Shown: positions 21,393 through 34,457 of the stretch, one piece after another
How positions within the stretch are numbered: the stretch's first letter is position 1
Layout of the letters: each line of letters opens with the position of its first letter
Source: Marinobacter sp.
GTDB taxonomy: Bacteria; Pseudomonadota; Gammaproteobacteria; Pseudomonadales; Oleiphilaceae
NCBI GenBank assembly: GCA_014359475.1
Contig: JACIZI010000007.1
Coordinates: forward strand, 62,001 to 126,000
DNA length: 64,000 nt
Reading direction: 5' to 3'
The notes under the pieces: generated by a model
Database searches by the model: none
What the model was told of the DNA's origin: nothing
The model's input: only the letters and a program-made list of their open reading frames with translations
Made by a program: the position numbers and the translations under genes

Positions 21393-22172
21393 TCAGCATT
21401 TAAAAGCCGGCTTGCGCCGGCTCTCGAAAGCATCAAGCCCTTCGGCAACGTCATCGCCGGGTAGTGCCCGCACTGCTGCGTCCCGCTCGAGCCGCATCTG
21501 CTGGTCTATCGTCATGTCCGCACCTTCACGGACCAGGCGTTTCATTTCGGCAATACCAGGGCGTGAGCGGGTAGCGATGGTCTGGCAATAGTCCAGCGCG
21601 GCCTTGTGCAGTTCTGCATCCGGCACAATATAATTGACCAGGCCGGCCTCCCTGGCTTCGTCCGCCTTGAGCCAGCGCGCCGAGAACATCAGGTCGAGTG
21701 CCCGGCGCTGGCCCATCAACCGCGTCAGCCGCTGCGAACCGCCCCAGCCGGGGATCAGGCCGAATTGCGCGTGCTGATCGCCGAATTGCGCGGTCTCGGC
21801 GGCAAAGCACACGTCGCAGGCCAGCATCAGCTCGATCCCGCCGGCCAGACACAGCCCCTGCACGGCCACGACGACAGGGAGGGTGCTCGTTTCGAGCGCG
21901 CGGAGGTTTTTCATGCCAAAGGCGATGAAATGATCCAGTGCGGCCGGGTCGTTTAATTTGCCCTTCACTTCGGTGAGATCGGCGCCGGTGCAGAAGTGCT
22001 TGCCCTGCGCACGAATGAGAATCGACCGGACTTCCCGATTCGCCTCGAATTCCATGCGCGCGGCGGCGATGCGGTCATGCACGTCCAGTGACAGGCAATT
22101 GAATTTCTCCGGGCGCGCCAGTTCGATGATGCCGACGCTGCCTTCAATGAAGGCGTCGATCACGCCACTCAT
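21393..22172 (-). CDS. enoyl-CoA hydratase/isomerase (crotonase), island operon 1
   Basis: A 259-residue crotonase-fold protein. The oxyanion-hole segments are G-K-H-F-C-T-G-A-D-L and C-L-A-G-G-I-E-L, and the catalytic Glu position lies in L-I-P-G-W-G-G-S-Q-R, where the first usual Glu is not obvious but the second-loop G-x-G-G-x-Q-R is normal. It overlaps the upstream acyl-CoA dehydrogenase by four bases (22169-22172) and shares its operator at 23393. In the context of an AliB-like dehydrogenase and a BadH-like dehydrogenase it is a candidate for a cyclohex-1-enecarboxyl-CoA hydratase (BadK role). It is convergent with the CitE-like gene, marking the left edge of the island. Confidence 0.8.
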   Translation of the reverse strand: MSGVIDAFIEGSVGIIELARPEKFNCLSLDVHDRIAAARMEFEANREVRSILIRAQGKHFCTGADLTEVKGKLNDPAALDHFIAFGMKNLRALETSTLPVVVAVQGLCLAGGIELMLACDVCFAAETAQFGDQHAQFGLIPGWGGSQRLTRLMGQRRALDLMFSARWLKADEAREAGLVNYIVPDAELHKAALDYCQTIATRSRPGIAEMKRLVREGADMTIDQQMRLERDAAVRALPGDDVAEGLDAFESRRKPAFKC

Positions 22173-23350
22173 TTTGCCGCTCCCTTTGCCTTCTTGTCAT
22201 ACTGGAGCGCGATCCGCCCGACCTTTTCGCGGGCAATCACCAGCTTCTGGATTTGCGCGGTGCCGTCGCCGATCTGCAGGCCGAGCACGTCGTTGTAACG
22301 CTGATGGTGGGGCAGGTCAGTAGTATAGCCGTAGTGCCCATGCAGGATCAGGCACTGATGCAGGATCTCGCAGGCGGTCTTTGGCAGGTACCATTTGCAC
22401 ATCGCCGCCTCGGCGGTATGGGGCAGGCCGCGGTCGCGCAAATCCAGCGTGTAATAGCAAAGCTGGCGCATCATGGTCAGTTGGGTTTCGGCCTCGGCGA
22501 GGGGGAAGCTGACGCCCTGATATTGCACGATGGGTGCGCCGAACGCCTCGCGTTCCCGGACATACGCCCAGGTCTCGTCCACCGAGGCCTGCGCCGCGCC
22601 CAGACATTCCAGCCCGATCAGCGCCCGGGAATAGTCGAACCCCGACATGATCGTGCCAAAGGCGCGATCCTGTTCGGCCATCATGTTTTCGGCCGGCACG
22701 AAGACGTCGTCGAAAAACACCGATCCACGCCCGACAGGCTTGGTGCCGATGTCGTCAAAATGCGTGCGGCTGATGTCGTCCTGGTTCAGATCGACAAAAA
22801 AAGCGCTGACCCCGCGAGAGCCCCCGTCAGGATCGCCCGTACGCGCAAAAACAACGGCTGCGTCGGCCTGGCTGGCAAAACTCATGGATGTCTTTTCGCC
22901 GCTCAGTCGCCAGCCGTTGCCTGACTTTTCGGCCCTGAGCGTCAGGTTCGCCGCATCCGATCCGCCACGTGGCTCCGTCAGGCCCAGGCCGATGACGACA
23001 TCACCGGAAATAACCTTGGGCACCCATTCCGATGCGATCTCCCTGGGGGCGTGCCTGGCCACCATCCCTCCCATGAGGGAGCCCAGCAGCTGCACATAAC
23101 TTGCATTGAAATCCGCATAGGCAATTTCTTCGACAATGAGGCCCGCAGTGACCGAGCTTTCGCCAAGCCCGCCGAATTCCTCCGGCAGATCCGGCGCAAT
23201 CAGACCCAGCGCGCCCATTTCCCGGATCAGCGCACGATCAAGGACGTGGCCGCGTGCGCGCTCCTGGTAACCGGGCGCCAGTTTTTTCGTGGCGAATCGC
23301 TTCGCGGTTTCGCGAAACGCCTTTTGATCTTCTGTTGGCTGGAATTGCAT
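22169..23350 (-). CDS. acyl-CoA dehydrogenase, cyclohexanecarboxyl-CoA dehydrogenase (AliB)-like
   Basis: A 393-residue FAD acyl-CoA dehydrogenase starting at ATG 23350, with GGAGAGG eight bases upstream. The flavin loop is G-L-G-L-T-E-P-R-G-G-S-D-A. The helix-G position is Ser (F-D-Y-S-R) and the C-terminal loop reads I-G-D-G-T-A-Q-I-Q-K near residue 362, giving Asp where most members have the catalytic Glu of Y-E-G-T. The G-D-G-T form occurs in the group that includes dehydrogenases of cyclohexanecarboxyl-CoA, and the nearby BadH-like gene supports that reading; the exact substrate is inference. It heads a two-gene minus-strand operon with the crotonase gene, and the palindrome at 23393-23410 lies 42 bases upstream. 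Confidence 0.8.
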   Translation of the reverse strand: MQFQPTEDQKAFRETAKRFATKKLAPGYQERARGHVLDRALIREMGALGLIAPDLPEEFGGLGESSVTAGLIVEEIAYADFNASYVQLLGSLMGGMVARHAPREIASEWVPKVISGDVVIGLGLTEPRGGSDAANLTLRAEKSGNGWRLSGEKTSMSFASQADAAVVFARTGDPDGGSRGVSAFFVDLNQDDISRTHFDDIGTKPVGRGSVFFDDVFVPAENMMAEQDRAFGTIMSGFDYSRALIGLECLGAAQASVDETWAYVREREAFGAPIVQYQGVSFPLAEAETQLTMMRQLCYYTLDLRDRGLPHTAEAAMCKWYLPKTACEILHQCLILHGHYGYTTDLPHHQRYNDVLGLQIGDGTAQIQKLVIAREKVGRIALQYDKKAKGAAK

Positions 23351-23392
23351 CGGCGCGCCTCTCCATGAAGGAAAATGTGTCCCAGTGAAAAA

Positions 23393-23410
23393 ACCTAACA
23401 AATGTTAGAA
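23393..23410. promoter_or_regulatory. island operator O1 (before the 22169-23350 dehydrogenase)
   Basis: ACCTAAC-AAAT-GTTAGAA: the right half matches the island consensus TTCTAAC-N4-GTTAGAA at seven of seven bases and the left half at five of seven. It lies 42 bases upstream of the minus-strand start at 23350, in the expected promoter position. Likely bound by the tandem TetR protein encoded at 25343. Confidence 0.7.
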
Positions 23411-23565
23411 TATAGATCAAGCTGAGTTTCGGTGAGAATGTTGACCATGGAGGATGTGCGGATGGAGGGGAGGCGGAGGGTGCGCAGATAGAGGGAAAGC
23501 TGGGGGTGCACGCTTTGCTTTCACCTCTCCGCGCGCCCATCCCCCTCCGCTGTGCAGCCGTCAGC

Positions 23566-24420
23566 TCACTGGACGAAAGCAGCCCGATTCCCGGCGACGA
23601 AATCGCGGAAGCGACGGGCCGGGCGCCCAAGCACGTCGCTGATCGTGGTCTCGGTGCCGGCGAGATAGCCCTTTGGGGCGAGGGAGGCGAGTTCCACCAT
23701 GGCGGCGGCGACCTCTTCCTGCATCCCGTCGGCGATCATGGCCGCCCTGGAGGCCTCCGCCGACAAGGGCATGCAGGTGACGGATCGTCCGGTCGCCTCG
23801 GACAGAACCGTGGCAATCTCCTCACCTGTCAGGGCCTCGGGGCCGGTCAGGCCATAGATCTTGCCTTCGTGCCCCGGTCCGGTCAGCGCCTCTGCGGCGA
23901 CGTCGGCGATGTCGCGGGCATCGACCCAGGCCACCGGTCCGCCCAGACCGTCGTAATAAACCGCGTCCTTCGCAATGTTACCGGCCTGCCACAGCAGGTT
24001 CTGCATGAAATAGGTCGGCTGGACAAAGGTCCAGTCAAGCCCGCTTTCCTTCACCCGTTCCTGGGTTTCGGAATGCCATTTTCCGAAGGTCACCCTGGCC
24101 TTGGGCGACGCGCCCAGACCGGTGGCCAGAACGACATGGCGAACACCCGCGGCTTTTGCCGCCTCGATCACGTTCGCTTTCCAGCGGCGCATGTCCGGAT
24201 GGGCGGGCGTCACCAGATAGATCTTTTCGGCACCGGTACATGCCTTTTCCAACGTGGCAGGGTCGGAGAAATCGGCGGTGACGGCCTCACACCCTTTGGC
24301 CCTGAGGGAAGCGACCTTCGCCGGATCGCTGGTGACTGCGCGCAGTTTCACGCCCTTGGACAGAAGCGTATCGACAAGGGGCGCGCCGGTGGTGCCGGTC
24401 GCGCCGAAGACGGTTATCAT
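23566..24420 (-). CDS. NmrA-like NAD(P)-binding atypical short-chain dehydrogenase
   Basis: A 284-residue Rossmann protein of the NmrA/QOR2 type. It starts with the nucleotide-binding M-I-T-V-F-G-A-T-G-T-T-G-A-P-L and shows the substrate-cleft segments typical of NAD(P)H-binding proteins such as quinone oxidoreductase 2 (W-H-S-E-T-Q-E and Q-P-T-Y-F-M-Q-N-L-L). The classical SDR Tyr-x-x-x-Lys is absent. The start at 24420 has AAGGAA upstream. It lies 52 bases after the BadH-like gene on the same strand, so the two probably form an operon driven from the 25300 operator. Such proteins can be redox sensors or reductases; its part in the pathway is unknown. Confidence 0.75.
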   Translation of the reverse strand: MITVFGATGTTGAPLVDTLLSKGVKLRAVTSDPAKVASLRAKGCEAVTADFSDPATLEKACTGAEKIYLVTPAHPDMRRWKANVIEAAKAAGVRHVVLATGLGASPKARVTFGKWHSETQERVKESGLDWTFVQPTYFMQNLLWQAGNIAKDAVYYDGLGGPVAWVDARDIADVAAEALTGPGHEGKIYGLTGPEALTGEEIATVLSEATGRSVTCMPLSAEASRAAMIADGMQEEVAAAMVELASLAPKGYLAGTETTISDVLGRPARRFRDFVAGNRAAFVQ

Positions 24421-24472
24421 GGCGTTTCCTTTCGCAGATCTGCAACGGGTTTCATCGCTTGGGGTTGCGGGC

Positions 24473-25234
24473 TCAGCCGTGCATCGACAAGCCACCTGAG
24501 ACCGAAATCACCTGGCCGGTGATGAAGCCGGCATCGTCCGACGACAGGAAACAGATGATTCCGGGGTAGTCTGCCGGCTGCGCCAGGCGCTTCATCGGAA
24601 TGGCCCGCTTGAGGCCTTCGGCGATCTTTTCTCCGGACTCGCCCTGAGCGATCTGGGCGAACAACGGCGTATCGGTCGGCCCGGGCGCAACCGCGTTCAG
24701 CTGAACGCCCTTGCGAGCCAGTTCCCGCGCTACCGTTTTGGTAAACGAGATAATGCCACCCTTGCAGGCAGAATAAACCGCTTCGCCCGATGAGCCGACG
24801 CGACCGGCATCGGAGGCAATGTTGACCACGCGGCCGCCCCCGTTTTTGACCATGCCGGGAAGCACCGCATGATGCATGTTCAACGGGCCATAAAGGTTGA
24901 TGTCGATGACCTTTTTCCAGAGGTCGGCATCGGTGTCGAGGAACGGCTTGATCTCATCCCATCCTGCGTTATTCACCAGCACGTCGATCGGGCCCCCGGC
25001 TTCGAATTCGGCCACCGCCTTGTCGACCTGGCCGCGGTCGGTGATGTCCGCCTTGAAAGCTTGCGCTTTGCCTCCCGAGCCCTGGATGATCCGGGCCGTT
25101 TCCTGCGCGCCCTCTTCGTTCAGGTCAAACACCGCAACCTCGGCACCTTCTTCGCCGAAGCGTTCGCAAACCGCGCGCCCTATGCCACTTCCGCCGCCGG
25201 TGACGATCACCCGTTTTCCATTCAGTCCTCGCAT
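24473..25234 (-). CDS. badH: short-chain dehydrogenase, 2-hydroxycyclohexanecarboxyl-CoA dehydrogenase (BadH)-like
   Basis: A 253-residue classical SDR. Cofactor motif T-G-G-G-S-G-I-G, N-N-A-G-W-D, catalytic Ser in N-I-A-S-D-A and Y-S-A-C-K. Several longer stretches agree closely with what I remember of Rhodopseudomonas palustris BadH: L-N-M-H-H-A-V-L-P-G-M-V, G-R-V-G-S-S-G-E-A-V-Y, A-P-G-P-T-D-T-P-L-F and the tail S-D-D-A-G-F-I-T-G-Q-V. BadH oxidises 2-hydroxycyclohexane-1-carboxyl-CoA to the 2-keto compound before ring opening. I place the start at ATG 25234; an upstream extension to 25333 would run through the operator and is unlikely. A general FabG-like role is the alternative. Confidence 0.78.
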   Translation of the reverse strand: MRGLNGKRVIVTGGGSGIGRAVCERFGEEGAEVAVFDLNEEGAQETARIIQGSGGKAQAFKADITDRGQVDKAVAEFEAGGPIDVLVNNAGWDEIKPFLDTDADLWKKVIDINLYGPLNMHHAVLPGMVKNGGGRVVNIASDAGRVGSSGEAVYSACKGGIISFTKTVARELARKGVQLNAVAPGPTDTPLFAQIAQGESGEKIAEGLKRAIPMKRLAQPADYPGIICFLSSDDAGFITGQVISVSGGLSMHG

Positions 25235-25299
25235 GCAGAAATCCCCCTGTCCCGCTAACACCTTGAAAATGAAGTTGATTTTAAGTGCCGAACAAGTTA

Positions 25300-25317
25300 T
25301 TCTAACAACCTTTAGAT
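25300..25317. promoter_or_regulatory. island operator O2 (between badH-like gene and tandem TetR gene)
   Basis: TTCTAAC-AACC-TTTAGAT: the left half matches the island consensus fully and the right half at five of seven. It is 65 bases from the minus-strand start at 25234 and 25 bases from the plus-strand GTG at 25343, so one site could control both the BadH-like operon and the regulator itself. It is the least perfect copy, as is common for autoregulatory sites. Confidence 0.68.
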
Positions 25318-25342
25318 TTTTTGCAAAGGACACCTTTGAAAA

Positions 25343-26704
25343 GTGGCAGCCAAGCGAAAACAGCGACTGGTACCAAAGCCTGATGCAATCAGGAAAGCCG
25401 ACGATGAGCTGAGTAAATCAGAGAGAACGCGCGAGTGCGTCCTCGCTGCGGCCGGCCGCCTATTCCGGCAAGAAGGCTTCTACGCGACAACGATGCGCGA
25501 CATCGCCGAGGAATCCGGAATAGAAGCGGGAAGCATCTATTACCATTTTCAATCCAAGGATGAGATTCTGAACGAGGTTCTCGATCGGGGCGTGCGGCAA
25601 CTTTACGAGAAGGTCCGTGAGATTACCCGCTCGGCGAGAAGAAATTCTGAGGATTTTCGCAAGACGTTTGCTTTGCTCATCGAAACACACCTGACCTGTT
25701 TGTTGACTGACAGCGACTTCACCTCTGCCAATATCCGCAACTACCCGATGCTGTCGGATAAGGCGCGCGCGCCGCACCGTGAGTTGCGTGCAGCCTACGC
25801 GGAGGCCTGGAGCCGTTTTCTGGAAGACGGGAGGCGTGCTGGCCGCCTGAGAAGTGACGTTTCCGTTTCTGCGATCCGCCAGTTCATATTAAGTGCAATG
25901 AACTGGACCGTTGAATGGTATGACATCGACCGGTATCCGGTGCATACCCTCGCGGAACGCATGAGCAAACTGTTACTTGACGGAATGTGCGTGCGCCACA
26001 GAGCTGACACGGAGGGGCAGAAGGAGAGCGCATCCACCATATTCGCCAGGGCGCCTGAACCGGTCGGCAAGGCGGCACATACCCGCGCGAAAATCCTGAG
26101 GGCGGCAGCACGCACGCTCAGGGATAATGGTTACAAGGCGACCACGCTGAGACAGATCGTGGCAGAAGCGGATATGAAAGCGGGCAGCGTCTATTACCAT
26201 TTCAAGTCCAAAGAAGCGATCGTGGATGAGGTTCTGGATGCCGGATTGAGGGATTTGCTATCGGGTGTCAGCGCCGCGATCGAAGAATATCATGAGCCAT
26301 ATGACCATCATGCCAGGATCGCGACTGCGATCCGGACCCATCTTGATTTTCTTTTCAGGGCAAGCGAATTCACTTCTGCAAACATCAGAAGCTACGGGAT
26401 GCTTCCCCCACATCTCAAGGAGAGGCACCGGAAAGTGCGTCATTTGTATGGACAGCTGTGGGACAAGGTTCTCCGCGAAGCGCAGGAAGACGATGCCATC
26501 AGGTCGGATATCAAAATTGTGCCCCTGCGTCAGGTGATGTTGGGTGCCCTGAACTGGACGGTGGAGTGGTTTGATCCGGACAAGGCGGGAAAACAGGGGT
26601 ACCTCTCACTGCCCGAGTTTTCCGACATGCTCATCAGGCTCCTTTTTGAGGGGATCTGCGACCGGAGTCACGCGGCTTACCCAGAACAAACAGCAGCGCA
26701 GTGA
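25343..26704 (+). CDS. tandem TetR regulator: two complete TetR proteins fused in one chain
   Basis: A 453-residue protein, about twice the usual TetR length. The first unit has its helix-turn-helix at about 30-76 (A-T-T-M-R-D-I-A-E-E-S-G-I then S-I-Y-Y-H-F) and a ligand domain to about 215. A linker of about 30 residues leads to a second unit with its own helix-turn-helix at about 247-289 (A-T-T-L-R-Q-I-V-A-E-A-D then S-V-Y-Y-H-F) and ligand domain. The two ligand domains are alike, sharing F-T-S-A-N-I-R-(N/S)-Y-x-M-L and N-W-T-V-E-W-(Y/F)-D, so the gene arose by internal duplication. The frame is uninterrupted. Start at GTG 25343 with AAAGGA upstream. As a single chain it could form a pseudo-dimer on one operator. 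It probably represses all island units, released by an acyl-CoA. Confidence 0.9.
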   Translation: MAAKRKQRLVPKPDAIRKADDELSKSERTRECVLAAAGRLFRQEGFYATTMRDIAEESGIEAGSIYYHFQSKDEILNEVLDRGVRQLYEKVREITRSARRNSEDFRKTFALLIETHLTCLLTDSDFTSANIRNYPMLSDKARAPHRELRAAYAEAWSRFLEDGRRAGRLRSDVSVSAIRQFILSAMNWTVEWYDIDRYPVHTLAERMSKLLLDGMCVRHRADTEGQKESASTIFARAPEPVGKAAHTRAKILRAAARTLRDNGYKATTLRQIVAEADMKAGSVYYHFKSKEAIVDEVLDAGLRDLLSGVSAAIEEYHEPYDHHARIATAIRTHLDFLFRASEFTSANIRSYGMLPPHLKERHRKVRHLYGQLWDKVLREAQEDDAIRSDIKIVPLRQVMLGALNWTVEWFDPDKAGKQGYLSLPEFSDMLIRLLFEGICDRSHAAYPEQTAAQ

Positions 26705-26719
26705 TCGACACCGCTGCGA

Positions 26720-27121
26720 TCACACCAGCAGGAAGTGGTACAGCCCTTCCGCGATCGGTTTCTCCCGGGCCGTCTGCCAGCTGATTACACTGACGCTCGC
26801 GATGCGCTTTCCTTTGCGGGTAACATTTGCACACGCATACAGCGGCCCCTTCACGGCAGGTCTGAGATAATCCACGGTAAGATTGATCGGTTTGGCGGGC
26901 GCTTCCGCGAAATCGGGGCGCACCGCTATGGCGGCGATGGCTTCCATCAAGCTTGCGATTATCCCGCCGTGGTAATACTCCATGACCGGGTTTCCGATAT
27001 GGCGTGATTCAAAGGTCATCTCTGCCGCGGCGTGAAGGTTGTCCAGGCTCTGGACTTCGAAGTTAAGAAATCGGAAGAACGGAACACGGGATACGTTGGC
27101 ATTGACGGTTTGCAAGTCCAT
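26720..27121 (-). CDS. PaaI-type hotdog thioesterase, second of a pair
   Basis: A 133-residue single hotdog domain. H-G-G-I-I-A-S-L-M-E shows the PaaI/YbgC-like central helix with the catalytic acidic residue, and V-D-Y-L-R-P-A is the conserved strand. Such enzymes hydrolyse acyl-CoA thioesters and can relieve CoA sequestration. It begins at the stop codon of the preceding thioesterase gene (ATG 27121, or GTG 27124), so the two are translationally coupled. The pair may form a heteromer. It is convergent with the tandem TetR gene, 15 bases away. Confidence 0.8.
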   Translation of the reverse strand: MDLQTVNANVSRVPFFRFLNFEVQSLDNLHAAAEMTFESRHIGNPVMEYYHGGIIASLMEAIAAIAVRPDFAEAPAKPINLTVDYLRPAVKGPLYACANVTRKGKRIASVSVISWQTAREKPIAEGLYHFLLV

Positions 27122-27603
27122 CACGAGGCTTTTCCTTTTCTGATCGCTTCAAACATGCTGGTTTCACCGTGCGTCAGGGCAAACGAGGCGGACCCACGGG
27201 CGATTTCCGCATCCTCATGGCCATCGAACCAGATGCTGCCGGAATTAAACGCAATATGCCGGGTTTGCCGAAAGCAATGCGCACGGACGATGATATCCGC
27301 GCGGGAATGGGCGGGACGCAGGTAATCAACTCTGAGGTCAAGAGTGGCCATGGTGCTGACACCCTCAATGGCCACAAAGTTCGCAAGCCCGAAGACACTG
27401 TCCAGAAGGGCCGTCAGGATGCCACCATGAAGCAGGGTCTGCTCCCTGTCGACGCAAAAGTCCGGGTTGAAGGGCATCCGTACCTTAACGCCTTCGGTCG
27501 ATACCTCTTCGATCTCCAGCTCCATATGACTAATCAGCCCTTTGCCGCGCGCATTCCACATCTGCGCGATTTGCTCCCTCTTCTTCTGTGTGATGTCAGA
27601 CAT
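27121..27603 (-). CDS. PaaI-type hotdog thioesterase, first of a pair
   Basis: A 160-residue hotdog protein. H-G-G-I-L-T-A-L-L-D-S-V-F-G contains the catalytic-Asp helix of PaaI-family thioesterases, and V-D-Y-L-R-P-A-H is the partner strand. The two adjacent thioesterases share this architecture but differ in length (an N-terminal helix of about 25 residues is extra here). Start at ATG 27603. Upstream lies a remnant frame and then operator O3 at 27910, which may serve as a divergent control site for this pair and the CoA-transferase operon. Confidence 0.82.
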   Translation of the reverse strand: MSDITQKKREQIAQMWNARGKGLISHMELEIEEVSTEGVKVRMPFNPDFCVDREQTLLHGGILTALLDSVFGLANFVAIEGVSTMATLDLRVDYLRPAHSRADIIVRAHCFRQTRHIAFNSGSIWFDGHEDAEIARGSASFALTHGETSMFEAIRKGKAS

Positions 27604-27748
27604 GCGATCTTTCCTTTAGCGTCCCGTGTTCCGTGAAGCGGGGCTTTGGTTTTTTCGATAAACGCGACATCCGGTCCCCATGATCGACGATCTGGCGCTG
27701 TTTATCGGTCAGCGAACAGTTTGCCCGGATGGTGTCCAGGTCAGCCAT
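27596..27748 (-). pseudogene. possible N-terminal scrap of an acyl-CoA dehydrogenase
   Basis: A 50-codon frame from ATG 27748 reads M-A-D-L-D-T-I-R-A-N-C then S-L-T-D-K-Q-R-Q-I-V-D, which looks like the first helix of an acyl-CoA dehydrogenase, where C-S-L-T-D-x-Q-R-x-I-V-D is common. After about thirty residues the resemblance ends and the frame closes just inside the next gene. I read it as a truncated gene left by a deletion, although a short leader peptide is possible. The rest of the 27604-27945 gap holds operator O3 and nothing else I can identify. Confidence 0.35.
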
Positions 27749-27909
27749 GGCCGCCTGGTTGTGCCTGGATAATCTTCTTCTTCCCGAAAGAATGCTATCT
27801 GCAGCGTCAACTAAAATCAAACGCATGTTCGAAAATATGTCAAGGCAGGTTTCCGGCATCACACTTCATCACCCCCATGTCTTGAGGTTTGTCTTCCACG
27901 ACGCTAAGG

Positions 27910-27927
27910 TTCTAACAAGCGTTAGAA
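27910..27927. promoter_or_regulatory. island operator O3 (before the CoA-transferase operon)
   Basis: TTCTAAC-AAGC-GTTAGAA is a perfect match to the island consensus in both seven-base arms. It lies 18 bases upstream of the plus-strand ATG at 27946, overlapping the likely promoter or start of transcription, and about 300 bases from the divergent thioesterase pair. Confidence 0.78.
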
Positions 27928-27945
27928 TAATAACATGGAGAGCGG

Positions 27946-29169
27946 ATGACCAGCCCACTGCATCAACTGAAAATCATCGAACTTGGCCATGTTATCGCCG
28001 GGCCTCTTTCGTCAGCTCTGCTCTCTGATTTCGGTGCGGATGTCATCAAGATCGAGGCGCCCGGCCGGACGGACATGATGCGCGACCTCGGCCCCAAGGC
28101 AGAGGACGGGGTCGGCGTCTGGTGGAAGACCCTTGCCCGCAACAAGAAAATTCTGAGTCTGGACTGGAAGTCGGACGAAGGCAGGAACATCCTGCGCAGG
28201 CTGGTTGAAGGTGCCGACGTGCTGGTCGAAAATTTCCGCCCCGGTGTGCTTGAGCGGGCGGGTGTCGGGCCGGACACGTTGCATGAGTGGAACCCGGATC
28301 TGGTTGTGCTGCGCGTGTCGGGTTACGGACAGGAGGGCCCGATGCGGGATGTGCCCGCTTTCGGGCGTGCGGCAGAGGCCATGAGTGGTCTCGCCCACCT
28401 GACCGGCTATGCTGACGGACCGCCGATGCATCCTGGATTTCCCGCGGCCGACAGCACCACAGGATTGATGGGCGCTTTGGGCATTATGATCGCATTGTTT
28501 GCCCGGGAAAAAGGGGTTGCGCGCGGTCAGGTTGTCGATCTTGCGGTGTTTGAGACGCTGCTTCGGTTGATGGACTATCCGGTGCCCGCGTTGACGGGCG
28601 CGAACCTTTCACCCCGGCGCAATGGCTTGCGCCAGCCGATGGATTATGCACCTGGCGGCATGTTCCGCACGTCCGACGGGGTGTGGCTGACCGTTTCCGC
28701 AGGCAGCGCAGAAACGGCCCAGCGACTGCTGCGGGCGGTGGGCGGAGAGGCGCTGGCCGAGGACCCGCGGTTTGCGAGCCTTGACCTGATGTCCCGGCAT
28801 ATGGCCGTGGTCTTTGATGCCATCAATGATTTCGTCACGCAGCGCACGCTTGCCGAGGTTGAGGCGGAATTCGCCCGCCATGATGCGGTTGCCTCACGGG
28901 TGCTGAGCGTCGAAGAGATCACGACGAATGAGCAGATACGCCATCGCGGAGACATCCTGTCGGTCGCGGGCGAGCAGACCCGGGTTGTCGGTCCGGTCCC
29001 GCACCTGAGCGCCACGCCAGGGGAGTTGCGCTGGCTGGGGCGGCCACCGGGAGCGGACACCCGCGATATTCTGCGCGATCTTGGTTATGACGACGCCCAC
29101 ATCACAGCCCTGCATGAGGCAGGGTTTGTGGGACAGGAGGCACGTAGTGACTTTTCGGATGACCAATGA
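27946..29169 (+). CDS. CaiB/BaiF-type class III CoA transferase
   Basis: A 407-residue family III CoA transferase. Conserved parts: I-E-L-G-H-V-I-A-G-P near the start, D-F-G-A-D-V-I-K-I-E, V-E-N-F-R-P-G-V-L, and the catalytic Asp in A-A-D-S-T-T-G at about 170. These enzymes move CoA between carboxylic acids, so it could activate the island's acid substrate without ATP, taking CoA from succinyl-CoA or an acyl-CoA. This fits the absence of an acyl-CoA ligase in the island. It is the first gene of a plus-strand operon behind operator O3 and overlaps the next dehydrogenase gene by 23 bases. Confidence 0.9.
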   Translation: MTSPLHQLKIIELGHVIAGPLSSALLSDFGADVIKIEAPGRTDMMRDLGPKAEDGVGVWWKTLARNKKILSLDWKSDEGRNILRRLVEGADVLVENFRPGVLERAGVGPDTLHEWNPDLVVLRVSGYGQEGPMRDVPAFGRAAEAMSGLAHLTGYADGPPMHPGFPAADSTTGLMGALGIMIALFAREKGVARGQVVDLAVFETLLRLMDYPVPALTGANLSPRRNGLRQPMDYAPGGMFRTSDGVWLTVSAGSAETAQRLLRAVGGEALAEDPRFASLDLMSRHMAVVFDAINDFVTQRTLAEVEAEFARHDAVASRVLSVEEITTNEQIRHRGDILSVAGEQTRVVGPVPHLSATPGELRWLGRPPGADTRDILRDLGYDDAHITALHEAGFVGQEARSDFSDDQ

Positions 29170-30313
29170 GCAGGAAGAAATTCGCAGCCAGATCCTGCGA
29201 ATATGTGCGCAGTTTGACGATGACTACTGGTTGGAGCGGGATCGTACCGGTGATTTCCCTCATGAGCTGCACAGAGCGATGGCCGATGGCGGGTGGCTGG
29301 GAATCGCCATGCCGGAAGCGGTCGGCGGTGCCGGCCTGGGGATTACCGAGGCGACCATCATGATGCAGGCGATCGCGGAGTCGGGGGGTGGCGCCAGCGG
29401 GGCCTCGACGGTGCACATGAATATATTTGGCCTCAACCCGGTAGTGAAGTTCGGAACCGATGAGCAACGCGCCCGAATGCTGCCCCCCTTGATCGCCGGT
29501 GATGAAAAGGCCTGTTTCGCCGTGACCGAGCCGACGACGGGTCTGGATACTACGAAGCTGAAAACCATGGCCGTGCGACAGGGCGACCGATATGTCGTGC
29601 ATGGCCAGAAGGTTTGGATTTCGACCGCCCAGGTGGCCGACAAGATGTTGCTTCTGGCAAGGACCACACGGCTCGAGGATGTGACCGACCCGACCGAGGG
29701 TTTGAGCTTGTTCTATACGGATCTCGACCGCAATTTCGTGGATGTGCGTGAAATCGAGAAGATGGGGCGCAAGGCAGTCGATTCGAATGAGGTGTTTATC
29801 GACGGCCTGCCGATTCCGGCCCGGGACCTGATCGGGGAAGAGGGCAAGGGCTTCCGGCAGATCCTGCACGGATTGAACCCCGAACGCATCCTCGTGGCTG
29901 GCGAATGCATTGGCATCGCGCGCAACGCTCTGGCGCGTGCGGCGCAATACGCCAACGAGCGTGTGGTCTTCGGGCGGCCGATCGGCCAGAATCAGGGCGT
30001 TCAGCATCCGCTGGCTCAGGCCTGGGCACGGGTGGAAGCTGCCAATCTCATGGTGATGCATGCCGCCGCCCTTTACGATTCGGGAGAGGCGTGCGGGGTG
30101 GAGTCGAACGCCGCCAAGCTTCTGGCCGCAGATGCTGCTGTGGAAGCCACCGAAGCGGCGCAGATTACCTTTGGCGGCTTCGGGTACGCCAAGGAATATC
30201 ATGTTGAGCGTCTGGTAAGGGAGGCACTGCTGTTTCGCATCGTGCCCGTGACACCACAGATGCTTTTGTCTTTCATCGCGGAAAAGGCGCTTGGGCTTCC
30301 CAAGTCTTACTGA
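29147..30313 (+). CDS. acyl-CoA dehydrogenase, island operon 5
   Basis: A 388-residue FAD acyl-CoA dehydrogenase. I choose GTG 29147 because AGGAGG sits six bases before it; ATG 29159 is the alternative. Flavin loop A-V-T-E-P-T-T-G-L-D-T-T and helix-G Glu in L-N-P-E-R-I-L-V-A-G-E are as in the paralogue at 19146-20309, and the usual C-terminal Y-E-G-T Glu is again missing. The two genes come from the same subfamily, which often acts on branched or alicyclic acyl-CoAs. The start lies inside the CoA-transferase gene, so the pair is coupled and the dehydrogenase probably acts directly on the thioester made by that transferase. Confidence 0.86.
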   Translation: MTFRMTNEQEEIRSQILRICAQFDDDYWLERDRTGDFPHELHRAMADGGWLGIAMPEAVGGAGLGITEATIMMQAIAESGGGASGASTVHMNIFGLNPVVKFGTDEQRARMLPPLIAGDEKACFAVTEPTTGLDTTKLKTMAVRQGDRYVVHGQKVWISTAQVADKMLLLARTTRLEDVTDPTEGLSLFYTDLDRNFVDVREIEKMGRKAVDSNEVFIDGLPIPARDLIGEEGKGFRQILHGLNPERILVAGECIGIARNALARAAQYANERVVFGRPIGQNQGVQHPLAQAWARVEAANLMVMHAAALYDSGEACGVESNAAKLLAADAAVEATEAAQITFGGFGYAKEYHVERLVREALLFRIVPVTPQMLLSFIAEKALGLPKSY

Positions 30314-30332
30314 CCAGAAGCGACGGGCGAGT

Positions 30333-30500
30333 CTAGCAGCCTGTCGGGCTTAAGTAATCGTCGCGAGCAAGGTGGCAAAGCGAGCGCAGATTTTCTGGAT
30401 TTTGAGGCGCATAGTGGTTCTATGCAACGAAAAAGCCGGGAAATATGAGCCGCTTTCCCACCGGCGCAGTAGATTAGCCTTAAGTCCGACAGGCTGCTAG
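30333..30500. mobile_element. 168-bp MITE-like element with 22-bp terminal inverted repeats
   Basis: The left end (30333-30354) and right end (30479-30500) are inverted copies of each other with one mismatch in 22; both begin CTAGCAGCCTGTCGG when read inward, apart from that mismatch. The interior has no gene but contains a hairpin (GCATAG-TGGTT-CTATGC, 30409-30425). CTAG at both ends is itself palindromic and could be a four-base target duplication. The structure is that of a non-autonomous miniature transposon mobilised by a full-length relative elsewhere. It lies between the stop codon at 30313 and operator O4, so it separates the two plus-strand operons and may affect read-through. Confidence 0.75.
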
Positions 30501-30563
30501 TAAGCCGTACCGGCTGCGGGTCCTCCCAGGGCGGCGCCGGCGCTGTCACGGGATTAACTATTA

Positions 30564-30581
30564 TTCTAACATATGTTAGAA
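30564..30581. promoter_or_regulatory. island operator O4 (before the transglutaminase-acyl-CoA dehydrogenase operon)
   Basis: TTCTAAC-ATAT-GTTAGAA is a perfect 18-bp palindrome including the spacer and is the strongest copy. It ends 12 bases before the ATG at 30594, directly adjoining the GGAGGG ribosome site, so a bound repressor would block transcription start or early elongation. Confidence 0.8.
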
Positions 30582-30593
30582 AGCGGAGGGTAA

Positions 30594-31313
30594 ATGGCAA
30601 AATCCACAGACAACCTGCCGACAGAGGCGGAGCGCTATCTCATGCCATCGCACTTTGTAGAAAGCGATAGCCTTGAAGTACAGGACTTCGTGTCCTCTGC
30701 ATTGCGCGATCTCCCGCCGGATGCGTCCGAACGGGACAAAGCGATCCGTTTGTTCGAGGCGGTTCGCGATGATATCCGATACGATCCCTATTGCTTATCC
30801 CTGGACGAAGACTCCTATCGGGCCAGTCGGGTGGCCGGGACAGAGGCGGCGTTTTGCGTTCCCAAGGCGATTCTGCTTGCGGCCTGCCTGCGTGCGGTCG
30901 GTATTCCCGCCGCTCTGGGGTTTGCGGATGTGCGCAACCACCTGAATACCCCCAAGTTGCAGGAACTCATGGGGACCGACCTCTTCATCTATCACGGCTA
31001 CGTTCAATTGTGGCTGGAAGGAGCGTCTTACAAGGTCACGCCTGCGTTCAATATGGAGCTATGTGAACGCTTCGGGGTCAAACCGCTGGTCTTCGACGGG
31101 TATCACGATGCCCTGTTCCATGAGTTCGATGAAAAGAACCACCGGCACATGGAATATGTGAAAGACCGGGGGCTATATTTCGATGCTCCGATCCGGGAAT
31201 TCATCACGGCATTCAAGGAAACCTACCCGAAACTGGAGGCCTTCAGCCAGGCCCGGTTTTCCGGGGGTGCGAGGGGGTACGATTGCGGCTTTTCCGAGGA
31301 GGGGGCCTCTTGA
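30594..31313 (+). CDS. transglutaminase-like cysteine protein in the acyl-CoA operon
   Basis: A 239-residue protein with a transglutaminase/arylamine-type core. The catalytic Cys is in A-F-C-V-P-K-A (about 86), followed by A-A-C-L-R-A-V-G-I-P-A and A-D-V-R-N-H-L, and the probable His is in Y-H-G-Y-V-Q-L-W-L. The third acidic residue would fall in the V-T-P-A-F-N strand, where Asn replaces the usual Asp. No signal peptide, so it acts in the cytosol. Family members in bacteria are poorly characterised; possible roles are amide or thioester hydrolysis or acyl transfer. It is first in a four-gene operon with two acyl-CoA dehydrogenases and a crotonase, immediately downstream of operator O4, so a part in the same pathway is likely. 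Confidence 0.75.
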   Translation: MAKSTDNLPTEAERYLMPSHFVESDSLEVQDFVSSALRDLPPDASERDKAIRLFEAVRDDIRYDPYCLSLDEDSYRASRVAGTEAAFCVPKAILLAACLRAVGIPAALGFADVRNHLNTPKLQELMGTDLFIYHGYVQLWLEGASYKVTPAFNMELCERFGVKPLVFDGYHDALFHEFDEKNHRHMEYVKDRGLYFDAPIREFITAFKETYPKLEAFSQARFSGGARGYDCGFSEEGAS

Positions 31314-31341: not shown

Positions 31342-32463
31342 ATGACACAGACTGATATGCTTTCCAGCGACCAGGACGACCTTCGCTTGCTGCGTGAGAG
31401 CGCCCGCACCCTGTTTGAACGGGCTGGCGGAAGCGGAAGGGCCAGAAAACTGCGTGATGCCGGTGGCACCTGGGACCCGGAGATGGTCCGCGAACTGGCC
31501 GCGGCCGGGGTTCTCGGTGTGACGGTGCCCGAAGTGAATGGCGGGCTGGGCATGGGGCTGGCCGCCGCGGGTGTTATCGCTGAGGAAGTCGGCCGGGTGC
31601 TTGCCCCCGAACCGGTGGTAATGACGGTCGGGCTGAGCCTTGGTCTTCTGCGCCGGCTTTGCCCGGATCATCCGAGGGTGGCGCAACTGATCAGCGGTGA
31701 CACGGTCCTGGCGGTGGCCTGGCAGGAACGCGGCGCGGGTGGTGCGCCGGGCGATGCGGCATGCCGCTACGCAGATGGCAAGCTGACCGGAAGCAAGGCC
31801 TGGGTCGTCGGCGCGCCCGGGTCACAGGGTTTCCTTGTTGTGGCCGAGGGGGCTGATGGTCCGGTTCTGGCCCTGACCGAGGCCACCGCAAACGGATGTT
31901 CCGTCGACCAGCGCGTGCAGGCCGACGGGAGTGCAATGGGTGAGCTTTCGTTTTCGGCAACTCCGGCCGAGGAACTTGCCCGGGGCAACGCCGTAACAGA
32001 GGCGCTCAGCGACGCAATCAGCGATACAACGGCGCTTGCCGCGGCCGAGCTCGTCGGCCTGAGCGATCGCGCTTTTGAAATCACTCTGGACTACATCAAG
32101 ACCCGTGAGCAGTTCGACAAGCCCATCGGTTCCTTCCAGGTCCTTCAGCATCGCGCCGTGGATCTGAATGTCATGCGTGAGGTTGCACAGGCGGGCGTGC
32201 GCGAGGTTCTGGCCCGAATGGATTGCGAAACGGATCCGGGGGTCCGCAAGCGGCTCGCCAGCCGCGCCAAGGCGCGCGCTGTCACGGCCGCAAAGAAGAT
32301 CACGCGGGATGCGGTTCAGCTGCACGGGGCCGTTGGCTATACCGACGAATTCGATATCGGGCTTTATCTGAACCGGGCGCTGGTACTGTCGGCCTGGTTG
32401 GGCGACGACGCCTATCACAGGCGGATGTGGTTCAAGGCACGTGAACAAGAGGGGGCGGCATAA
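31342..32463 (+). CDS. acyl-CoA dehydrogenase subunit, probable heteromer partner
   Basis: A 373-residue acyl-CoA dehydrogenase homologue of the shorter, diverged type (L-L-R-E-S-A-R-T-L-F at the start, D-Y-I-K-T-R-E-Q-F-D-K-P-I-G-S-F-Q-V-L-Q-H in the middle, Q-L-H-G-A-V-G-Y-T-D-E at the end). The flavin-loop T-E-P-x-x-G-S-D motif is missing, and no catalytic Glu is evident at either standard position. Its stop codon overlaps the start of a second dehydrogenase gene. Such unequal adjacent pairs form alpha2beta2 heterotetramers in steroid and ring catabolism (the FadE26-FadE27 type), in which this kind of subunit supplies half of each flavin site. Confidence 0.83.
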   Translation: MTQTDMLSSDQDDLRLLRESARTLFERAGGSGRARKLRDAGGTWDPEMVRELAAAGVLGVTVPEVNGGLGMGLAAAGVIAEEVGRVLAPEPVVMTVGLSLGLLRRLCPDHPRVAQLISGDTVLAVAWQERGAGGAPGDAACRYADGKLTGSKAWVVGAPGSQGFLVVAEGADGPVLALTEATANGCSVDQRVQADGSAMGELSFSATPAEELARGNAVTEALSDAISDTTALAAAELVGLSDRAFEITLDYIKTREQFDKPIGSFQVLQHRAVDLNVMREVAQAGVREVLARMDCETDPGVRKRLASRAKARAVTAAKKITRDAVQLHGAVGYTDEFDIGLYLNRALVLSAWLGDDAYHRRMWFKAREQEGAA

Positions 32464-33614
32464 TGGCGGACTGGAACACAATGAGTGATGCGGAATTCCG
32501 CAAGGAAGTGCGCCGCTTCTTTGAAACAGAATACCCCGAAGAGCTGCGCCATCTGCCGCACCGTCCGAAATTCGCCGAGGTGGAGCATTGGCACCGCAAG
32601 CTGCACGCCAGGGGCTGGGTGGCTCCGGCCTGGCCTGCTGAATATGGCGGCATGGGGCTGAATGCCGCCAAGCTGCTGATCTTTTACGAAGAACAGCAAC
32701 GCTGGGGTGTGAACCGCGGGCGCGACATGGGTGTGCAGATGGTCGGCCCGCTGATTATCAAGTTCGGCACCCGGCAACAGAAAGACTATTGGCTGCCGCG
32801 CATCCTCAGCTGCGAAGACATCTGGTGCCAGGGCTATTCCGAGCCCGGAGCCGGGTCCGATCTGGCCAGTCTGCGTACCCGCGCAGACATCGATGGCGAC
32901 GACTTCGTCATCAACGGGCAGAAGACCTGGACCACGATGGCGCATGACGCCACCCATATCTTCATGCTGGTGCGGACCGATCCGGGGGCGCCAAAGAAGC
33001 AGCAGGGTATCAGCTTCGTGCTGGCGCCGATGGACCAGCCCGGGGTGGAGGTCCGTCCTATCCGGACACTTGCGGGAGAAACCGAGTTTTGCGAGGTCTT
33101 TTTCGACAATGCCCGCACGCCCTGCGAGAACCTCGTCGGCGAGCTGAACAAAGGCTGGACAATGGCCAAGGCGCTGTTGAGTTTCGAGCGTATCTTCATC
33201 GGTTCTCCAAGCCTTGCCCAGAACGCCCTGGGGCAGCTGGAAAGCTTTGCCCGGTGCCGCGGCGCATTTGACGATCCGGTGTTCTGTGACCGCTTTGCCC
33301 AGGCCGCCCTCGACGTTGAAGACCACGCCGCGCTTTATGCCCGTTTCGCGGATCAGCTTAAGCGTGGCGAAACGCTGGGTGCGGATGTCTCGATGCTGAA
33401 AATCTGGGTAACTGAATGCTTCCAGCGTATTACCGAGCTGAGGATCGAGGCCGCCGGCCCGGATGGCGCCACAATAAGTCCGCTGCAGGTCGGCAACGTC
33501 AGCGTGGACATCCTGGCGAGCTTCTACAAGGCCCGACCGACAACGATCTACGGTGGGTCGAACGAGATCCAGCGCAACATTCTTTCCAAGGCCGTCCTTG
33601 GATTACCAGGCTGA
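32463..33614 (+). CDS. acyl-CoA dehydrogenase subunit, probable catalytic partner
   Basis: A 383-residue acyl-CoA dehydrogenase that carries what its neighbour lacks: the flavin loop Y-S-E-P-G-A-G-S-D-L, the K-T-W-T-T strand and L-S-F-E-R-I-F-I-G with a Glu at the helix-G catalytic position. The C-terminal I-Y-G-G-S-N-E-I-Q-R-N-I has Gly where many members have Glu. These complementary features are what heterotetrameric acyl-CoA dehydrogenases show. The ATG overlaps the previous stop by one base. It likely introduces a double bond into a bulky or cyclic acyl-CoA. Confidence 0.86.
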   Translation: MADWNTMSDAEFRKEVRRFFETEYPEELRHLPHRPKFAEVEHWHRKLHARGWVAPAWPAEYGGMGLNAAKLLIFYEEQQRWGVNRGRDMGVQMVGPLIIKFGTRQQKDYWLPRILSCEDIWCQGYSEPGAGSDLASLRTRADIDGDDFVINGQKTWTTMAHDATHIFMLVRTDPGAPKKQQGISFVLAPMDQPGVEVRPIRTLAGETEFCEVFFDNARTPCENLVGELNKGWTMAKALLSFERIFIGSPSLAQNALGQLESFARCRGAFDDPVFCDRFAQAALDVEDHAALYARFADQLKRGETLGADVSMLKIWVTECFQRITELRIEAAGPDGATISPLQVGNVSVDILASFYKARPTTIYGGSNEIQRNILSKAVLGLPG

Positions 33615-33647: not shown

Positions 33648-34457
33648 ATGTCGGACCGTTATGCACAATACAACAAGCTGAAATTTGACTATCCGGCGGA
33701 TCGCGTCCTGCGCATTACCTTTGACCGGCCCGAGTCTTTTAATTCAGTCGATGCGGAAACCCATACCCAGATGACGGATATGTGGATCGATATCGACCGC
33801 GACCCCGACATCAATGCGGTGATCGTGACCGGCGCGGGCAAGGCCTTTTCGGCGGGCGGCGACTTCAGCCTGATCGAGAACATGATCGGGAATTCCCAGG
33901 AGATCATGAAAACCTGGAAAGAGGCCAGGGGCCTCGTCTATAACATTATCAACTGCAACAAACCCATCATTTCCGCCATCAACGGTCCGGCCGCGGGTGC
34001 GGGTCTGGTCGTTGGCCTCCTGGCGGACATCTCCATCGCCGGCAAAAAGGCAAAGATCGTCGATGGCCACCCGCGCCTGGGCGTTGCAGCCGGTGATGTG
34101 GCGGCCATCATCTGGCCACTGCTGACCTCGATGGCCAAGGCGAAATACTATCTGATGACCTGCAAGCCGGTTTCCGGTGAAGAGGCGGAGCGCATAGGCC
34201 TGGTGTCGCTGTGCGTCGAGGATGACGAATTGCAGAAAATCGCGCTGGATACGGCGGTTGAGCTGGCTAACGGCTCGCAAAGCGCTATCCGCTGGACCAA
34301 GTATTCTCTCAACAACTGGCTGCGTCAGGCCGGTCCCATCTTCGATGCCTCGACCGCACTGGAAATGCTCGGCTTCATGAGTGAAGACGTCAAGGAAGGG
34401 GTGCTGTCGCATCGCGAAAAGCGTGCACCGAACTTCCGCAAAGACTGCCCGCTTTAA
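33648..34457 (+). CDS. enoyl-CoA hydratase/isomerase family protein, last island gene
   Basis: A 269-residue crotonase-fold protein. The first oxyanion segment is A-F-S-A-G-G-D-F and the second N-G-P-A-A-G-A-G-L. At the catalytic loop it has R-L-G-V-A-A-G-D in place of the P-E-x-x-x-G-x-x-P-G-x-G-G of true hydratases, so Asp rather than Glu is near the substrate. The S-A-G-G-D start and this Asp recall ring-forming or ring-cleaving crotonases (MenB, BadI) more than ordinary hydratases, although it is not close to BadI overall. It could therefore be the ring-opening hydrolase of the island, which otherwise lacks one. AAGGAAC precedes the ATG. Confidence 0.78.

Follow-up and report, generated by a model that had tools for sequence, protein, structure and literature searches.

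A 64,000-nucleotide stretch of a Marinobacter sp. genome (contig JACIZI010000007.1, positions 62,001 to 126,000; the window in what follows) carries an island of acyl-CoA catabolic genes in which copies of one inverted repeat, TTCTAACNNNNGTTAGAA, stand before the transcription units, together with a gene for a tandem TetR regulator (25343-26704, plus strand, GTG start) whose 453-residue product holds two TetR_N and two TetR_C_24 stretches. We consider it very likely that this palindrome is the operator of the tandem TetR protein, which would bind it as a single-chain pseudo-dimer that has kept an ancestral palindromic operator. The sites, their rarity, their position before the catabolic units and the joint inheritance of operator and regulator across genera are seen directly in the sequences. 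An initial annotation of this DNA had proposed such a regulon from four copies of the palindrome, and our analysis supports the view of the island as the probable regulon of the tandem TetR protein.

Palindromic sites in the window

Scanning the window for TTCTAACNNNNGTTAGAA with at most three mismatches gave five places, compared with a chance mean of 0.48; none of 100 shuffles reached five. Four of the places lie where the initial annotation had put them, with the arms it had described. Candidate operator 1 (23393-23410; ACCTAAC-AAAT-GTTAGAA, two mismatches) stands about 42 nucleotides (nt) before the ATG at 23350 of an acyl-CoA dehydrogenase gene, a start from which the orthologue in G136, a genome of the same family, also aligns. 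Candidate operator 2 (25300-25317; TTCTAAC-AACC-TTTAGAT, two mismatches) is common to the regulator and the divergent BadH-like gene, with 65 nt to the ATG at 25234 of the latter and 25 nt to the GTG at 25343 of the former; this arrangement implies that the tandem TetR gene would be autoregulated. Candidate operators 3 (27910-27927) and 4 (30564-30581) are perfect, with no mismatch, and lie 18 nt before the CoA transferase gene and 12 nt before the transglutaminase-like gene, respectively. These distances, counted by hand from the open reading frames of the window using likely start codons, agree with the earlier claim of 12 to 65 bases. The fifth place (27816-27833; ATCAAACGCATGTTCGAA, ATCAAAC-GCAT-GTTCGAA, three mismatches) was absent from the annotation and is a candidate for a decayed operator, operator 5.

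Just upstream of operator 4 lies a 168-bp element (30333-30500) with terminal inverted repeats of 22 nt that are 95% complementary, which we take to be MITE-like (MITE, miniature inverted-repeat transposable element). Its arms occur within the window in these two copies only, and G136 has an ABC-transporter operon in the place of the element.

Rarity in the whole genome

The whole genome of the window (G000, 3.69 Mb) was scanned by mismatch count rather than with a matrix, with the pattern read backwards as control. Up to three mismatches are found at 25 places, 5 of them in the island. The perfect palindrome has only two copies, at 27910 and 30564, both in the island, and of the three two-mismatch copies, two are the island sites at 23393 and 25300. 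The third (C12:268669, TTCAAAC/GGTAGAA) equals these two in mismatch count but breaks near-invariant core letters, and it lies inside an open frame of 267 codons. Of the 20 off-island places 11 were inspected; nine are inside open frames of at least 167 codons and two are not. Many equally good sites scattered at unrelated genes were one outcome that, according to the initial annotation, would speak against its proposal; none of the off-island matches equals the perfect pair. The palindrome stands out because its best matches in the genome fall in the island, and the scan supports it as a putative island-specific operator.

Co-occurrence of regulator and operator across genomes

Among 163 genomes of the same family, orthologues of the regulator were found only in G136 (91%, complete) and G033 (91%, cut at a contig end), the next-best match reaching 40% over half the length. 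The operator pattern with at most one mismatch was present in 23 of the 163 genomes, five times in G136, four times in G033 and twice in G000; in the other 160, G007 has two matches and 19 genomes have one. The reversed pattern, used as control, matched more of these genomes than the pattern itself, and never more than three times per genome.

In a sample of 295 Rhodobacteraceae-like genomes, scanned for the exact pattern TTCTAAC-N4-GTTAGAW (W-pattern), the regulator occurs in eight and the pattern in nine, with an overlap of eight. Every carrier of the regulator holds four to six exact sites. The ninth genome, G583, has a single site and lacks the regulator (1 of 287 non-carriers), and the reversed control matched five of the 295 genomes, none of them a carrier. 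This co-occurrence (Fisher 7e-15, kinship ignored) argues, genome by genome, for the earlier suggestion that the tandem TetR protein reads the palindrome.

The phylum sample gave matches in 3 of 299 genomes, namely G000, G279 (a single match) and G446, in which three sites adjoin the gene of a single-domain relative of the regulator. A scan of named genomes gave at least 75 loci. Tandem proteins with 47 to 79% identity are encoded by L075-L124, with both heads found by motif count in 48 of these 50 frames; the hosts are mainly Rhodobacterales, and Hoeflea, Labrenzia, Mesorhizobium, Acidocella and Sneathiella are also represented. Next in identity, at 46 to 50%, come L126-L132, whose proteins, from Bradyrhizobium and its relatives, have a single domain. 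With sites and regulator present in same-family, Rhodobacteraceae-like and named loci, a regulon confined to the window strain can be rejected.

The tandem gene was also found on 39 plasmid records, 13 of them typed as conjugative. In two Sulfitobacter plasmids (L166, L167), which show the gene on large marine Rhodobacterales plasmids, a gene for an AraC-type regulator adjoins the NmrA-like gene.

Position and conservation of the sites in relatives

We compared the upstream regions of orthologous regulator genes, as the initial annotation had advised, in 50 tandem loci, allowing at most two mismatches within 150 bp upstream of the match start and using 209 permuted-letter arms as control. A site was present in 45 of the 50 loci, and the best of the permuted arms reached 3 of 50, which supports the predicted operator. 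The palindrome was also present, with at most one mismatch, in all seven single-domain loci (L126-L132). Pooled sites give the consensus AWTCTAACR-NN-YGTTAGAWT, in which the core C, A, A and C are almost invariant and 88% retain the core T.

Comparison of the window with G136 and G033 shows unchanged arms, and differences confined to the four spacer letters, at three of the sites, operators 3 and 4 among them; at the fourth site a terminal arm letter differs. Operator 1 is conserved in both genomes, and its counterpart in two Sulfitobacter plasmids lies between an acyl-CoA dehydrogenase and a 2,4-dienoyl-CoA reductase gene. All five sites of G136 with at most one mismatch are in one region; at up to two mismatches a 58-kb stretch of this genome holds seven, confined to 39 kb and placed where units start. 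Genome G640 also has seven such sites (at most two mismatches). They precede the regulator with the BadH-like gene, a pair of flavin reductase and acyl-CoA dehydrogenase genes, two operons for an ABC transporter and an acyl-CoA ligase, a transglutaminase-MaoC-dehydrogenase operon, a gene for a class III CoA transferase and a CoA-transferase/dehydrogenase operon. In some Rhodobacteraceae-like genomes (G605) the sites stand in clusters about 100 kb apart.

A tandem TetR protein with two similar heads

Domain search, alignment and a structure model all indicate two TetR units in one chain. PF00440 (TetR_N) matches the regulator in two stretches (E 4.4e-35), and the AlphaFold2 (AF2) model (pLDDT 82.7, pTM 0.81) has as its top PDB match Mce3R (9b7y; 435 columns, TMq 0.60, root-mean-square deviation (rmsd) 6.8, identity 16%). 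The two recognition helices, EAGSIYYHF and KAGSVYYHF, are near-identical. In the alignment the motif (E/K/Q)AGS(I/V)YY(H/Y)F is present, with few exceptions, in both heads and in the Bradyrhizobium-type single-domain proteins, and the two recognition helices of Mce3R differ from each other.

In a tree of 19 tandem proteins split into halves, together with single-domain relatives, the N halves form one clade (support 100/98) and the C halves another (100/99), and the two are sisters at 97/94. One duplication and fusion therefore appears to precede all 19 tandem proteins. The Bradyrhizobium-type singles are placed nearest to the halves as outgroup (94/90). Since the nearest tree rows of the window regulator are from Paracoccaceae and Roseobacteraceae and the host genome belongs to another class, the copy in the window genome was most likely acquired from Rhodobacterales. 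A supposed triple TetR in L109, L110, L113 and L116, where the match spans about 1995 bp, was rejected because the frames have 435 to 442 codons and the further TetR match lies behind them.

The ends of the arms are mixed (AT) in 37 of 59 unique sites of tandem loci versus 5 of 12 in single-domain loci. Sorted by the type of the two heads, mixed ends make up 15 of 18 in E/K loci, 6 of 9 in E/Q loci and 13 of 23 in E/E loci, with 2 of 3 and 1 of 2 in two small classes; the sequences are related, and the dependence of arm-end asymmetry on head type is suggestive only. We tentatively raise the idea, which we hold to be rather less than an even bet, that a symmetric operator is turning asymmetric across lineages, E/E heads going with more symmetric ends and E/K heads with mostly mixed TTC/ATC ends. 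If so, these lineages would form a natural series from a palindrome reader towards an asymmetric reader of the Mce3R type.

A second TetR regulator in most carriers

Another TetR protein, TetR2, has a single domain (214 amino acids in G136) and is also present in G033. Orthologues of 76 to 84% occur in seven of the eight carriers of the Rhodobacteraceae-like sample; in G695 the best copy holds a stop and a 63% copy is intact. No orthologue was found in G000, where the best match outside the tandem gene is 36%, and none in G516 at E 1e-35 besides the tandem gene.

Eight regions upstream of TetR2 (G640, G605, G500, L077, G136, L109, L113 and L114), read by eye, contain approximately CCTAAC-N4-GTTAG(G/T)TAGG directly before the gene, with varying ends. 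In this site CTAAC is preceded by C (or G) and the other end reads GTTAGG/T, unlike WTCTAAC. Because G000 lacks TetR2 and keeps two perfect sites, the outer letters probably separate the sites of the two regulators; cross-talk between them is possible. The view in the initial annotation of one palindrome with one regulator thus fits the window, but has to be amended for most carriers, in which TetR2 comes with a CCTAAC-type site of its own.

TetR2 with its own site was observed at L046:10988-11632, L160, L164, L165, L077, L109, L113 and L114. TetR2-like single-domain genes at L133, L134 and L136, from three alphaproteobacterial metagenome-assembled genomes, share an identical upstream site, GTCTAACGTTAGTTAGAA.

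Proposed mechanism and alternative explanations

We propose that a single chain of the regulator adopts the Omega-shaped pseudo-dimer fold known from Mce3R, and that its two near-identical recognition helices would take the two arms of the palindrome, one polypeptide replacing the usual TetR homodimer. The occupied operator would cover the core promoter and repress the catabolic units as well as the regulator itself, until an acyl-CoA of the pathway, probably derived from a cyclohexane-carboxylate-like or isoprenoid-ring acid, releases the regulator. Such a protein would have arisen once, when a single-domain TetR was duplicated and fused and the ancestral palindrome was kept. We favour one chain with two like heads on one palindrome because like heads with a palindrome, and unlike heads with a non-palindrome, would fit a single rule. 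Blocking of RNA polymerase is the likely mode of action, because a -10-like TAGAAT can be read on either strand of the arm GTTAGAAT, and promoter-like matches overlap three of the four sites.

Several observations weigh against this proposal. The promoter scan is weak, and one of the matches that overlap three of the four sites is on the wrong strand. Loose matches are not enriched genome-wide, since the reversed control gives 109 places in G000 at up to three mismatches compared with 25 for the pattern. Five of the 50 orthologues (L112, L117, L119, L123 and L124; 49 to 57% identical) have no upstream site, and at the site of the duplicate of unit 1 in G136 an arm letter has changed as well. 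The co-occurrence counts do not represent independent events, because orthologous sites are inherited together, and co-occurrence alone cannot separate the tandem TetR from TetR2, because the latter accompanies most carriers (seven of eight, and G136 and G033). G516, one of the two genomes that lack TetR2, is a 260-contig, 91% complete assembly in which the tandem match has an internal TGA. The likeness of the whole chain to Mce3R is limited (TMq 0.60, rmsd 6.8), and the outgroup position of the Bradyrhizobium-type singles, at 94/90, is under the star threshold of the tree tool.

The tandem protein might instead bind as a dimer of chains, each contributing one head (for example two N heads), the remaining heads being free or bridging to another site. 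Mce3R has a separate interface by which it also forms dimers, with two DNA duplexes bound (PMC11667970), and the several operators of each island would permit bridging; but one Mce3R chain fills one operator (PMC11667970), the model of our regulator resembles Mce3R over 435 columns, and nearly all aligned proteins keep the recognition helix in both heads, which free heads would not need. We regard this arrangement as unlikely. Quite improbable, in our view, is that another TetR protein reads the palindrome, TetR2 in the relatives and some other genomic TetR here, with the tandem protein a passenger or co-reader. The presence of TetR2 in most carriers, the CTAAC-N4-GTTAG core that its own upstream site shares with the palindrome, and the single-domain relatives beside the same palindrome, which suggest that a single TetR can serve, speak for it. 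Yet G000 and G516 keep their sites without TetR2, and the site of TetR2 differs from WTCTAAC in its outer letters; its absence from G000 and its distinct own site weaken the candidacy of TetR2 as sole reader.

A regulator that activates, or does both, is very improbable. Some TetR-family proteins are activators, and FasR, named as one, appears in the list of family models, but sites 12 to 65 nt before the starts and arms with a -10-like hexamer suit the blocking of polymerase, and one site serves two diverging genes. To the idea that the palindromes arose by chance or are structural repeats, such as terminators or ends of mobile elements, with no regulator behind them, we give practically no credence. 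The 168-bp inverted-repeat element adjoins one site, but no shuffle reaches the observed count, the sites are start-proximal, and they are inherited together with one gene in another bacterial class; shuffles, rarity in the genome, the phylum sample and the upstream test (45 of 50) all led us to reject it. The single-chain reader of a palindrome therefore remains our preferred explanation.

Genes of the island and their history

On the minus strand, unit 1 comprises an enoyl-CoA hydratase/isomerase of the crotonase family (21393-22172; NCBIfam enoyl-CoA hydratase models, below cut-off) and the acyl-CoA dehydrogenase downstream of operator 1 (22169-23401 as an open frame, likely start ATG 23350), whose nearest model is TIGR03207, cyclohexanecarboxyl-CoA dehydrogenase, below cut-off. 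An NAD(P)H-binding NmrA-like protein (23566-24495, domain match) and the BadH-like short-chain dehydrogenase (24473-25333, likely start ATG 25234; TIGR03206, below cut-off) follow on the same strand, and so do two hotdog thioesterases (26720-27124 and 27121-27603, domain matches) beyond the regulator. The plus strand carries the class III CoA transferase (27946-29169, PF02515) with an acyl-CoA dehydrogenase downstream in its unit (29081-30313, domain match). The next unit starts with the transglutaminase-core protein (30594-31313; PF01841, and no NCBIfam family at E 0.001), followed by two acyl-CoA dehydrogenase-like genes (31342-32463, domain match; 32463-33614, nearest model pimC_large, below cut-off) and an enoyl-CoA hydratase family protein (33648-34457, NF005595) that is 75% identical to a palindrome-headed gene of G446. 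A unit of acyl-CoA enzymes marked by the palindrome thus begins with a transglutaminase-core protein, whose G640 orthologue is 83% identical.

The island probably breaks down ring-shaped acids. Its membership in the cyclohexane carboxylate (bad-ali) cluster was rejected on the curated scores, as TIGR03207 gave 527.6 bits against a cut-off of 575.35 for an AliB-type enzyme, and TIGR03206 366.8 bits against 431.2 for a BadH-type enzyme. The regulator beside the BadH-like and acyl-CoA dehydrogenase genes is a TetR with a palindrome other than the CAA-N4-TTG of the MarR-type BadR. Annotations of the neighbouring genes in the Sulfitobacter plasmids name AtuA-like proteins, hydroxymethylglutaryl-CoA lyase, biotin carboxylases and branched-chain-type ABC transporters. 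Our guess, made because of the AtuA-like, hydroxymethylglutaryl-CoA lyase and dienoyl-CoA reductase neighbours, is that the substrate is a ring acid with isoprenoid branches, in a monoterpene-acid pathway.

Judged by its genes, the island appears to be a reduced version of a larger Rhodobacterales regulon that is also found on plasmids, including Roseobacter plasmids. The window has no close counterpart of several genes of the G136 region, among them those for a MaoC-like protein, an AMP-binding ligase, a 2,4-dienoyl-CoA-reductase-like flavoenzyme and TetR2, as well as the ABC-transporter operon and two carboxylase sets. Because orthologues of most of these also stand in the G640 region, gene loss in the window island seems likelier than gain in the relatives. 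The complete module of operator, regulator and targets that the initial annotation had described holds in that the three are linked, but not in its completeness, the relatives having more target operons that are absent here.

One loss may be traced to operator 5. The stretch 27663-27852 aligns (82%) to stretches of G136 and G033 that hold ATCAAAC-N4-GTTAGAA, and behind this same site a plasmid operon encodes two acyl-CoA dehydrogenases, a short-chain dehydrogenase/reductase, a hydratase and two thioesterases. The site at 27816 would thus be the remnant of a promoter of an operon ending in two thioesterases, the genes between having been lost here. The earlier suggestion that the site at 27910 might also serve the divergent thioesterases is not borne out; the promoter alignment and the operon order on the plasmid point to their own decayed site at 27816 instead.

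The G+C content of the island, 59.7%, does not set it apart as foreign, the remainder of the window having 59.4%. In G136 (contig C1, L047, 42730-50855 in the coordinates of the 58-kb stretch) the acyl-CoA dehydrogenase/crotonase unit is duplicated together with its operator, and the two copies flank an N-terminal regulator fragment (92% identical, matching residues 2-121). A transposase-like open reading frame (Mu-transpos_C_2; L072:2299-3837) is close to one end of the G136 island.

Comparison with known systems

A full-text search of open-licence literature gave no description of this operator or regulator among the papers listed, which is thin evidence of absence. What appears to be new is a natural tandem TetR with a palindrome that is shared by single-domain relatives; TetR regulators as such and the tandem architecture were known before. 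The operator allows regulon calling in about 50 loci, mostly of Rhodobacterales, and on 39 plasmid records, and with it a route to the genes of an acid-degradation pathway in mainly marine bacteria. With single-domain relatives beside the same palindrome, the effect of fusion on affinity, stoichiometry and operator symmetry becomes directly addressable.

By its targets the system recalls BadR, which represses acyl-CoA dehydrogenase and BadH-type genes in cyclohexane carboxylate degradation and has an acyl-CoA effector, but BadR belongs to the MarR family and has the operator CAA-N4-TTG (PMC9795900). TetR-like regulators are mentioned there only for Gram-positive bad-ali clusters (PMC9795900). 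The mrc cluster for monoterpene ring cleavage in Castellaniella likewise has BadH-like, acyl-CoA dehydrogenase, dienoyl-CoA reductase, MaoC and citrate-lyase-like genes, a likeness at the level of gene types; the word TetR is absent from the main text of that paper (PMC4109377). KstR of Mycobacterium is a TetR with a palindrome overlapping the -10 region and a large lipid-degradation regulon, but is an ordinary homodimer whose core, TnnAAC-nn-GTTnnA, has a spacer of 2 rather than 4 (PMC1995591).

Engineered single-chain Tet transregulators also join two TetR domains head to tail and fold intramolecularly (PMC1797012), but they are man-made, whereas the window regulator is natural and its heads seem to be starting to diverge. 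The closest natural parallel is Mce3R of Mycobacterium tuberculosis, a single-chain TetR of which one chain binds each operator, a 25-bp non-palindrome (PMC11667970). Both proteins have two TetR units per chain, folded in Mce3R as an Omega-shaped pseudo-dimer, and both are autoregulated, presumably so in our case; the targets of Mce3R are implicated in cholesterol and lipid metabolism (PMC11667970). They differ in that Mce3R has unlike heads and a non-palindromic operator (PMC11667970), a combination of traits that the window regulator, with near-alike heads and a near-perfect palindrome, does not show. Mce3R, with its asymmetric site, is the one studied natural single-chain TetR found in our literature search; the tandem TetR proteins described here would form a second, widespread natural group, with a palindromic site.

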